From positions 1 to 64,000 of the forward strand of contig JAJPXP010000044.1 in NCBI GenBank assembly GCA_021205365.1: a DNA stretch of 64,000 nt. Reading direction: 5' to 3'. This DNA comes from Clostridia bacterium. Its GTDB lineage: Bacteria > Bacillota > Clostridia > Oscillospirales > Butyricicoccaceae. The number at the start of each line of letters is the position of its first letter. The stretch's first letter is position 1. The translations under genes were made by a program, and so were the position numbers. Below are positions 7,582 to 10,742 of this stretch, piece after piece. Under the pieces are notes generated by a model. That model saw only the letters and a program-made list of their open reading frames with translations. It was not told the DNA's origin and did not search any database.

Positions 7582-9489
7582 ATGTTGTTCCAACCCACTG
7601 AAGCCCATGAGGCGTTACGAGCCAAAATCCGCTCCTTTGCCGAAACTGAGGTGAAACCCCATACTTTCCTGATGGATAAGGAAAATCTGTTCCCTGCTGA
7701 AGCTGTGAAGCAGTTAGGCGAAATGGGTCTAATGGGCATTCCATATCCGCAAGAATACGGCGGAGCTGGGCTTGATGTCCTCAGTTATGCCATTGCAGTT
7801 GAAGAATTATCCCGCGTGGACGGCGGCACAGGCGTTATTTTATCTGCCCATGTTTCTCTCGGTACATGGCCAATCTTTGCATTCGGCAACGAGGAACAAA
7901 AACAGAAATACCTCGTTCCACTATGTAAAGGCGAAAAGATCGGCGCATTCGGTCTGACAGAACCCAACGCAGGCTCGGATGCAGGTGGCACGGAAACGAC
8001 TGCTGTCGATAAGGGCGATCACTGGTTGCTGAACGGCGGTAAAATTTTTATCACAAATGCCCCCAAGGCGGATACCTATGTTGTTTTTGCAGTTACTACA
8101 CCTGATATCGGCACCCGCGGAATTTCCGCATTTATTGTAGAAAAAGGTTGGGAAGGCTTCACCTTTGGCGATCATTACGATAAAATGGGTATCCGATCAT
8201 CTTCTACAGCCGAATTGATCTTTAACAATGTCAAAGTACCAAAAGAAAACCTGCTCGGCAAAGAAGGTCAGGGCTTCAAAATCGCCATGGCGACACTTGA
8301 CGGTGGTCGTATCGGTATTGCATCGCAGGCGTTAGGCATTGCGCAGGGCGCGTATGAAGCTGCAGTCGATTATGCAAAAGAACGCGTGCAGTTTGGTAAA
8401 CCAATCGGCTTCAATCAGGCTATCGGATTTAAACTTGCTGACATGGCAACCAAGCTGCGCTGCGCACGAATGCTGGTCTATTCAGCAGCCGAACGAAAAG
8501 AGCATCACCTCCCATACAGTACCGAAGCTGCCATGGCTAAGATGTACGCTTCAGATATAGCTCTTGAGGTAACAAACGATGCGCTGCAGATATTCGGTGG
8601 TACCGGTTTCCTCAAAGGCATGGATGTCGAGCGCATGTATCGGGATGCTAAGATTACTACTATTTACGAAGGCACGAACGAGATTCAGCGTATGGTAATT
8701 TCGGCAGGTATTATGGGAAAGGCGCCTAAGAGTGAAAGCTCGTCTAGCCGCCCAAAAAAGCCTGCTCCTATCACTGGTGTGCGTAAAAAGATCATTCTAA
8801 GCGAAGGTTCGTCAGAGGACAAGGTAAACTCTCTTGTTGAAGCACTCCAGAAGGATGGACATGACTTCACAGTTGGCATTCCGCTGGATACTCCGATACC
8901 ACAGGCTGAGCGTGTGGTTTCTGCAGGTGTTGGCATCGGCAGCAAGGAAAATATGAAGCTCATCGAAGATCTGGCACGTGCGGCAGGCGCCGCAATCGGT
9001 TCATCCCGTCCAGTCGCAGAAACATTAAAATATGTACCGCTCAACCGTTATGTCGGCATGTCTGGTCAAAAATTCAAGGGCAATCTGTATATTGCCTGCG
9101 GCATCTCCGGTGCGATCCAGCATTTGAAAGGCATCAAAGATGCATCTACCATTGTGGCAATTAACAAAAATGCAAATGCCCCCATCTTTAAAAACTGTGA
9201 CTACGGCATTGTCGGCGACGTGAATGAGATCCTGCCTCTGCTGGCAGCAGCACTTAACACAGGTGAAAAACAGCCTGCACCACCTATGGTAAAGATGAAG
9301 AGACCAGCTCCCCCGAAGCCGGAACCGATTGGCAAACGTTATGTCTGCGGTGGATGCGGTTATGAATATATACCAGAACTAGGTGACGAAGGTGCGGAAA
9401 TTGCACCGGGCACGCTGTTCGAGAATCTGCCTGCCGAGTGGGTTTGCCCCGAATGCGCAGAGGACAAGGATTTGTTCATTGAAGCCTGA
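7582..9489 (+). CDS. Acyl-CoA dehydrogenase / ETF-alpha FAD domain / rubredoxin fusion
   Basis: A 635-residue three-part redox protein. Residues 1-385 form a short-chain-type acyl-CoA dehydrogenase, with catalytic Glu363 in IYEGTNEIQRMVI. After a Ser/Lys/Pro linker, residues about 450-575 match the FAD domain of ETF alpha (GIGSKEN, then YIACGISGAIQH at 503-514 and YGIVGD); the ETF N-terminal domain and ETF beta are absent. After a Pro-rich linker, residues 587-635 are a rubredoxin with Cys589, 592, 622 and 625. Electrons could pass acyl-CoA to FAD to second FAD to Fe inside one chain. AAGGAGG 8 bases upstream fixes the start at 7582. The flavodiiron gene follows 38 bases later and is a natural acceptor of rubredoxin electrons. 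The acyl substrate is unknown. Confidence 0.92.
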   Translation: MLFQPTEAHEALRAKIRSFAETEVKPHTFLMDKENLFPAEAVKQLGEMGLMGIPYPQEYGGAGLDVLSYAIAVEELSRVDGGTGVILSAHVSLGTWPIFAFGNEEQKQKYLVPLCKGEKIGAFGLTEPNAGSDAGGTETTAVDKGDHWLLNGGKIFITNAPKADTYVVFAVTTPDIGTRGISAFIVEKGWEGFTFGDHYDKMGIRSSSTAELIFNNVKVPKENLLGKEGQGFKIAMATLDGGRIGIASQALGIAQGAYEAAVDYAKERVQFGKPIGFNQAIGFKLADMATKLRCARMLVYSAAERKEHHLPYSTEAAMAKMYASDIALEVTNDALQIFGGTGFLKGMDVERMYRDAKITTIYEGTNEIQRMVISAGIMGKAPKSESSSSRPKKPAPITGVRKKIILSEGSSEDKVNSLVEALQKDGHDFTVGIPLDTPIPQAERVVSAGVGIGSKENMKLIEDLARAAGAAIGSSRPVAETLKYVPLNRYVGMSGQKFKGNLYIACGISGAIQHLKGIKDASTIVAINKNANAPIFKNCDYGIVGDVNEILPLLAAALNTGEKQPAPPMVKMKRPAPPKPEPIGKRYVCGGCGYEYIPELGDEGAEIAPGTLFENLPAEWVCPECAEDKDLFIEA

Positions 9490-9527
9490 AAGTGATATAA
9501 CAGCCTGACATAAAGGAGGATTACAGA

Positions 9528-10742
9528 ATGTATTGCGTGCGCAATGTAACTGAGGATTTATATTGGGTAGGCGCGAACGATCATCGCCTGCATCTGTTTG
9601 AAAATATTCACCCCATTCCACGCGGCGTATCCTACAACGCCTATCTGCTGTTGGATGAAGCAACCGTATTATTCGATACTGTCGATTGGTCGGCTTGCCG
9701 CCAGCTGCTCGAAAATATTGAGCACCTGCTTGCAGGCAGACCACTTGATTACCTGCTTATCAACCACATGGAGCCCGATCATGGCGCATCAATTGAAGAA
9801 ATTTTACTCCGCTGGCCGAAGGTAAAGATCATTTCAACCGAAAAGGCGTTTCTATTAATGCGGCAGTTTGGGTTTGCCATTGAAGGACACGAGTTGATCC
9901 AAGTCAAAGAAGGTGACACCCAATGCTTTGGTAAGCATACCGTTACTTTCGTTGCCGCACCTATGGTGCACTGGCCTGAGGCAATGGTCACTTTTGACGT
10001 AACGAATGGTGTACTGTTCTCAGCAGATGCATTTGGCTCATTTGGCGCGCTGGACGGTAAACTCTTCGCTGATGAGGTGAATTTCGACCGCGACTGGATC
10101 GATGATGCACGCCGCTATTTGACCAATATTGTCGGCAAATACGGCCCTCATGTCCAGCTATTGTTAAAAAAGGCCTCTGGTATTCTGGATCAGATCAAGT
10201 ATATCTGTCCGCTGCACGGCCCGGTCTGGCGCAAGGATTTGATGTACTTCATTCACAAGTACGACCAGTGGAGCCGGTACGAACCCGAGGAACAGGGTGT
10301 ACTCATTGCTTATGCTTCAATGTACGGAAATACCGAGGCTGCGGCACAGGCATTGGCCAGCAAGCTTTGTGAAAAAGGTATGAGCAATGTGTGGGTTTAC
10401 GATGTATCCAACACCCATGTATCCCAGCTCATTTCCGAAAGCTTCCGTCTGAGCCATATTGTGCTTGCATCGGTGACATACAATCTGGGCATTTATCCGG
10501 TAATGCATAATTATCTGATGGACATGAAAGCACTGAATCTGCAAAACCGGACCTTTGCGTTGATTGAAAACGGTTCATGGGCAGTAAAATCAGGTGATTT
10601 GATGCAGAAATTCATTGAAACCGAGATGAAAAACATGACCGTACTGAGCGACCGTCTCTCAATGGCCTCAGCACTGCATGCCGACAAGGCCAGTGAATTG
10701 GACGCGTTTGCGGATGCCATCCTAGAATCAATGGATTTATAA
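9528..10742 (+). CDS. Flavodiiron protein (A-type flavoprotein, O2/NO reductase)
   Basis: A 404-residue class A flavodiiron protein. The N-terminal metallo-beta-lactamase-like domain has the full diiron ligand set: His80, Glu82, Asp84 in NHMEPDH, then His148, Asp167 and His230. The flavodoxin domain begins near residue 258 (YASMYGNTEAAA binds FMN phosphate). Family members reduce O2 to water or NO to N2O in the cytoplasm, usually fed by rubredoxin. It is cotranscribed with the rubredoxin-bearing acyl-CoA dehydrogenase fusion, which supports that protein as its electron donor. AAGGAGG precedes the ATG, and a strong terminator follows. O2 versus NO preference cannot be read from sequence. Confidence 0.93.
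   Translation: MYCVRNVTEDLYWVGANDHRLHLFENIHPIPRGVSYNAYLLLDEATVLFDTVDWSACRQLLENIEHLLAGRPLDYLLINHMEPDHGASIEEILLRWPKVKIISTEKAFLLMRQFGFAIEGHELIQVKEGDTQCFGKHTVTFVAAPMVHWPEAMVTFDVTNGVLFSADAFGSFGALDGKLFADEVNFDRDWIDDARRYLTNIVGKYGPHVQLLLKKASGILDQIKYICPLHGPVWRKDLMYFIHKYDQWSRYEPEEQGVLIAYASMYGNTEAAAQALASKLCEKGMSNVWVYDVSNTHVSQLISESFRLSHIVLASVTYNLGIYPVMHNYLMDMKALNLQNRTFALIENGSWAVKSGDLMQKFIETEMKNMTVLSDRLSMASALHADKASELDAFADAILESMDL

Follow-up and report, generated by a model that had tools for sequence, protein, structure and literature searches.

Two adjoining genes in the stretch of Clostridia bacterium DNA analysed here (the window, 64,000 nucleotides) probably encode a butyryl-CoA:oxygen oxidoreductase (BOOR), and we put at roughly 92% the probability that the pair would, as its analogue does, pass electrons from butyryl-CoA, which arises as an intermediate in butyrate fermentation, to O2 and make water. 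BOOR consists of BCR (FN1424) and FDP (FN1423) in Fusobacterium nucleatum (Bystrom and Wolthers, Biochemistry 2024, 63:2352, as described in PMC12288474, PMC12630350 and PMC13404960). By architecture and gene order, with the F. nucleatum proteins compared by description only, the window pair is an ordinary BOOR: an already described enzyme system, correctly read and well conserved. The original prediction had proposed the fusion, its flavodiiron neighbour and the electron chain between them, and knew of no described function; as the pair has both a function and a name, the suspected novelty is absent, and we rejected a new, undescribed electron chain on the literature. BOOR matters because with it obligate anaerobes can clear O2 using a reductant that is weak and plentiful, with no NADH spent. 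The window adds a case from a gut bacterium, likely of the Butyricicoccus family, in a genome that also carries Bcd-Etf cassettes and RnfC.

The fusion and its flavodiiron partner

The first gene (7582-9489, + strand) runs from an ATG at 7582 to a TGA at 9487-9489 and encodes 635 residues. We prefer this start to a longer reading from 7528 because an AAGGAGG ribosome-binding site lies just 5' of 7582 and nine aligned relatives begin there. Pfam confirms the three parts that had been claimed for the protein: acyl-CoA dehydrogenase (ACAD) domains at residues 6-377 (7597-8712; Acyl-CoA_dh_N 6-118, Acyl-CoA_dh_M 122-217 and Acyl-CoA_dh_1 229-377), an ETF-alpha FAD-binding domain at 439-519 (8896-9138; ETF_alpha, E 2.9e-27) and a rubredoxin domain at 586-632 (9337-9477; Rubredoxin, E 1.4e-17). 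In the PDB comparison, the best solved relatives of the ACAD part are the clostridial acyl-/butyryl-CoA dehydrogenases 5ol2_C and 4l1f_A; the second part aligns with EtfA of 1efp_A and 5ol2_A and conserves its motifs, and the third matches solved rubredoxins. All 90 full-length fusions keep Glu363, which lies within IYEGTNE at what we take to be the ACAD catalytic base position, and the four rubredoxin cysteines, Cys589, 592, 622 and 625. We also considered acryloyl-CoA reductase, as the AcrC model NF042972 is the best NCBIfam match of the ACAD part; its score of 483.4 bits misses the curated cut-off of 640, and we rejected the assignment.

The second gene (9528-10742, + strand) follows on the same strand after 38 bp and encodes a two-domain flavodiiron protein of 404 residues (ODP 35-231, E 1.4e-18; Flavodoxin_1 260-352, E 6.1e-6). 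His80, Glu82, Asp84, His148, Asp167 and His230 align with the same residues of the solved flavodiiron proteins 1ycf and 6etb and are presumably the six iron ligands; all six, as had been predicted, are present, and none of them varies among the 85 full-length copies. Pfam finds no rubredoxin domain on this chain, and identification as the flavorubredoxin NorV was dropped, the scores lying below both cut-offs (182.8 versus 711 bits for NF003954, 197.3 versus 635 for NF008887). The two genes are flanked by a predicted promoter-like site at 7484-7513 (+; TTGACA-18-CATAAT, with TG before the second hexamer, 11 of 12 consensus matches) and a predicted terminator-like hairpin at 10770-10810 (+; 17 pairs, then a T run). 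Scanned against shuffles, the region has no overall excess of such sites (8 promoter-like versus 6.6 expected, 4 terminator-like versus 3.3), so the case for these two sites lies in their quality alone.

These features agree with the BOOR of F. nucleatum. A single chain joins a butyryl-CoA-dehydrogenase-like ACAD, the C-terminal FAD domain of EtfA and a rubredoxin, judged by Pfam against the description in PMC12288474; a co-directional gene for a two-domain, class A flavodiiron protein adjoins it; and the catalytic Glu, four rubredoxin Cys and six diiron ligands are intact. BOOR is defined also by butyryl-CoA-dependent reduction of O2 to water, carried out by an alpha4-beta4 complex (PMC12288474, PMC12630350 and PMC13404960). 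The window pair differs in coming from another phylum and in being known here from sequence, its activity and complex being predicted.

Two other kinds of system share single components with the pair. The flavodiiron unit is homologous to that of flavodiiron systems fed by NAD(P)H, such as Moorella Hrb-FprA and E. coli flavorubredoxin, in which rubredoxin is the electron donor, whereas in the window the electrons would come from acyl-CoA via the fused ACAD and ETF-alpha domain, and rubredoxin is absent from the flavodiiron chain. The ACAD and ETF-alpha FAD domain are homologous to those of bifurcating Bcd-EtfAB (for example, 5ol2); in contrast, the fusion is a single chain that keeps only the FAD-binding part of ETF alpha, adds rubredoxin and has no adjoining ETF beta gene.

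Conservation, electron path and alternative readings

The original prediction staked itself on adjacency being conserved across genomes, and conserved adjacency is what we found: in 90 of 93 loci the fusion is followed by a co-directional flavodiiron gene, and the remaining three are cut off by the contig end, which falls 5 bp (L053) or 89 bp (L054) past the match or inside the fusion (L085). These loci comprise the best 80 of at least 546 confirmed relatives in named genomes and 13 from order and phylum surveys, at least two of the latter being the same contig as a named locus; as the 80 are all 76-90% identical, the sample leans to close relatives, and the Fusobacterium proteins appear neither among these 80 nor among the 120 related proteins listed. 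Roseburia inulinivorans and Agathobaculum desmolans are among the carriers of the pair. The distance between the two genes has a median of 31 bp, exceeding 150 bp in ten loci and 500 bp in three (L107, L108 and L110). A small reading frame lies in the gap in L107 (156 aa) and L108 (135 aa), the two that were opened; these Oscillibacter frames hold several CxxC pairs. L107 and L110 show a 516-residue flavodiiron protein with an N-terminal extension, a variant we dropped because the stretch before the flavodiiron protein in L107 and L108 also holds the separate small frame. Divergence of the fusion and of the flavodiiron protein correlates across 83 genomes (r = 0.82, uncorrected for shared ancestry), which common descent alone could explain. 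The distribution of the fusion is patchy in both order and phylum: a full-length tail (ETF-alpha plus rubredoxin) occurs in 10 of 147 genomes of the window's order, its own included, and in 5 of 398 in the phylum sample, two of them also in the order survey. The other survey matches listed are partial, with the ETF-alpha or rubredoxin part only, one of them being a rubredoxin-less fusion. Domains, ligands, gene order and conserved adjacency are all seen directly in the sequences; the patchy distribution, the three wide gaps and the rubredoxin-less fusion weigh against the chain set out below.

By analogy with F. nucleatum, from which substrate, electron flow and complex formation are transferred, the electrons would enter at the dehydrogenase FAD, move on through the ETF-alpha FAD and the rubredoxin iron to the flavodiiron FMN, and end at the diiron site, with no need of ETF beta, NADH or quinone. 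PMC12288474 reports a biochemical study of FN1424-FN1423 in which butyryl-CoA donates the electrons, water is formed, and BCR and FDP join in one complex; PMC12630350 describes the same reaction and numbers the genes FN1423-FN1424. This biochemistry supports the chain from acyl-CoA to water that had been proposed, which for the window proteins we infer.

Three other readings keep the genes and change what they do. The main donor might be another acyl-CoA, such as a propionyl- or branched-chain one, making the pair the acyl-CoA oxidase of a different pathway. That AcrC is the best model for the ACAD part, though under its cut-off (483 versus 640 bits), and that this part shares only 53-54% identity with the two Bcd proteins of the genome speak for such a donor; we nevertheless think it unlikely, given that the nearest solved relatives include butyryl-CoA dehydrogenases, that the F. 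nucleatum BCR uses butyryl-CoA (PMC12288474), and that the genome's own Bcd-Etf cassettes would supply butyryl-CoA. The same chain could instead serve mainly to reduce NO to N2O with acyl-CoA electrons, an alternative acceptor the original prediction had allowed. The window protein is indeed homologous to the NO-reducing 1ycf and to E. coli flavorubredoxin, and the Rrf2 regulators beside relatives of the pair resemble the NO-sensing NsrR (PMC13404960). Yet a test for NO reduction by the F. nucleatum complex gave none (PMC12288474), and the window operon has no adjoining Rrf2 gene, leaving NO as the main acceptor very unlikely.

Finally, the two proteins might be co-transcribed but work separately, the fusion passing electrons to another acceptor and a free rubredoxin feeding the flavodiiron protein. 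The rubredoxin-less fusion noted above, in genome G237 (561 aa, L130:5386-7071), bears on this: an ACAD-ETF-alpha protein 60% identical to the window's, it has no flavodiiron gene next to it, so the first two domains can also occur outside the pair. It is followed by a small Cys-rich frame with no Pfam match at 0.01 and then by a long frame that presumably encodes a RecQ-like helicase. Against separate work, the two flavodiiron proteins of G237 are only 28% and 30% identical to the window's, so that the rubredoxin and a close partner are missing together, a joint absence that, in this one genome, agrees with the proposed chain. Adjacency is also near universal in the loci examined, and the F. 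nucleatum proteins form one complex (PMC12288474). We regard separate work as the remotest of these readings and retain the butyryl-CoA to O2 chain. We dropped the idea that the rubredoxin-less fusion marks a clade, since of 21 genomes of its order G237 alone showed it at E 1e-33.

Rrf2 and a candidate operator

In gut Clostridia the pair adjoins a gene for an Rrf2 regulator, according to a preprint (PMC13404960) that finds the fusion in 123 of 149 neighbourhoods and the flavodiiron protein in 115, proposes that the regulator controls the BCR-FDP pair, and credits the authors of the 2024 BOOR study with having shown the pair in butyrogenic gut Firmicutes. Using a profile built from 30 BOOR-adjacent Rrf2 proteins, we examined the 75 named loci that hold the fusion start and at least 700 bp before it; in 38 of them a co-directional Rrf2 gene lies directly upstream. 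The window shares the BCR-FDP pair with the Rrf2-BCR-FDP operons of Roseburia inulinivorans, Eisenbergiella tayi and Faecalibacterium (PMC13404960) and differs from them in lacking both an adjoining Rrf2 gene and the Rrf2-type promoter palindrome: the Rrf2 profile has no match within 4 kb of the pair.

That palindrome came from an EM search of 37 loci (L064 and L084 dropped). It spans 21 bp, has the consensus tCTtGACAAAaTTTGTCaAGa, precedes Rrf2-bearing operons and overlaps the TTGACA of an apparent -35 box, as in Roseburia inulinivorans (L101), where it lies about 0.6 kb before the fusion. Its log-likelihood is 341, against 30-38 in three shuffles. Within equal 800-bp upstream regions, a site of at least 10 bits occurs in 34 of 36 Rrf2-bearing and 2 of 38 Rrf2-less loci, the window belonging to the latter group; the Rrf2-bearing loci had themselves trained the model. 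With half of the sites used for training, 17 of 19 held-out loci scored above every Rrf2-less locus in each of three splits, the held-out sites having been located with the full model. One of the two Rrf2-bearing misses, L100, has a 23.7-bit site just outside the 800 bp; the other, L051, has no palindrome site. A strict pattern occurs in 11 of 16 genomes chosen from the 38 Rrf2-bearing loci and is absent from the other five. All 11 include a hit with the letters of the genome's own pre-BOOR site; three further places fall in two genomes, and reversing the pattern as a control yields 5 hits, spread over 4 genomes.

We predict from these patterns that the palindrome is the Rrf2 operator of BOOR. 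The main text of PMC13404960, among the papers listed the only one that joins Rrf2, flavodiiron proteins and butyryl-CoA, makes no mention of an operator, binding site, binding motif, palindrome or promoter.

The window promoter does not carry the palindrome, its best site scoring -4.1 bits against a shuffle mean of -4.7. Of the 12 survey loci, nine have no Rrf2 and score at most 6.3 bits (eight of the window's order with 1,200 bp upstream and one of another order), L142 is too short upstream for scoring, and L138 and L139 have both Rrf2 and palindrome; the last two have the same palindrome letters as the Megasphaera loci L086 and L087 and are therefore not independent. A displaced BOOR Rrf2 elsewhere in the genome was considered and rejected, as the three Rrf2 proteins that pass the cut-off, including the one encoded in the window, are unlike the BOOR-adjacent group: the nearest (contig C36) is 23-33% identical to that group, whose members are 37-66% identical to each other (two rows of the comparison), and the window's has no match. 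Allowing up to two mismatches, the whole genome has four palindrome sites against one in the reversed control, none of them upstream of the window pair.

Elsewhere, a redox-sensing Rrf2 would repress the Rrf2-BCR-FDP operon through the 21-bp palindrome over the -35 box, and both gene and palindrome would be absent in Butyricicoccus- and Agathobaculum-type butyrate producers. It is possible, though we offer it tentatively and hold it doubtful, that in the window's lineage BOOR stands outside the Rrf2 switch and, expressed from a near-consensus promoter, is a standing part of butyrate fermentation and no induced stress response. The predicted palindrome and its absence in this lineage bear on precisely this choice between an induced O2 response and a standing fermentation component.

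An AraC gene at 6447-7283 was rejected as a conserved regulator: tblastn against the loci compared gave two partial HTH matches (32% and 35%; L075 and L094) and nothing beyond them at E 1e-5. A palindrome shared by 40 Rrf2-less promoters, the window's included, was likewise rejected, its log-likelihood of 88 (26-38 in shuffles) coming with low information and an inconsistent place. An exact-dyad count of the promoters turned up no dyad in more than four of them, and it was the EM model that then brought out the 21-bp palindrome. The window's own Rrf2 gene (52486-52947, +), over the Pfam cut-off, follows a small regulator frame (52018-52386) that we take to be HxlR-like.

Place in butyrate metabolism

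Either of two Bcd-EtfB-EtfA cassettes could reduce the crotonyl-CoA formed once more while Rnf conserves energy, and O2 removal would in this way be tied to butyrate fermentation. The genome holds two such cassettes in tandem (L143:2007-8756, on contig C38) and RnfC, the Rnf subunit sought, well over its cut-off, so an energy-conserving cycle of the F. nucleatum type is possible there, as we infer. The EtfA and EtfB readings of the two cassettes are identical and the two dehydrogenases differ; an assembly effect is possible. Another flavodiiron protein of the genome (L002, on contig C24) shares 45% identity with the window's, and the 3.6 kb compared at that locus have no fusion match. Within the window, genes of the enoyl-CoA hydratase/isomerase and acetyl-CoA hydrolase/transferase families lie side by side at 54473-56589 on the - strand and are possibly part of short-chain acyl-CoA metabolism.
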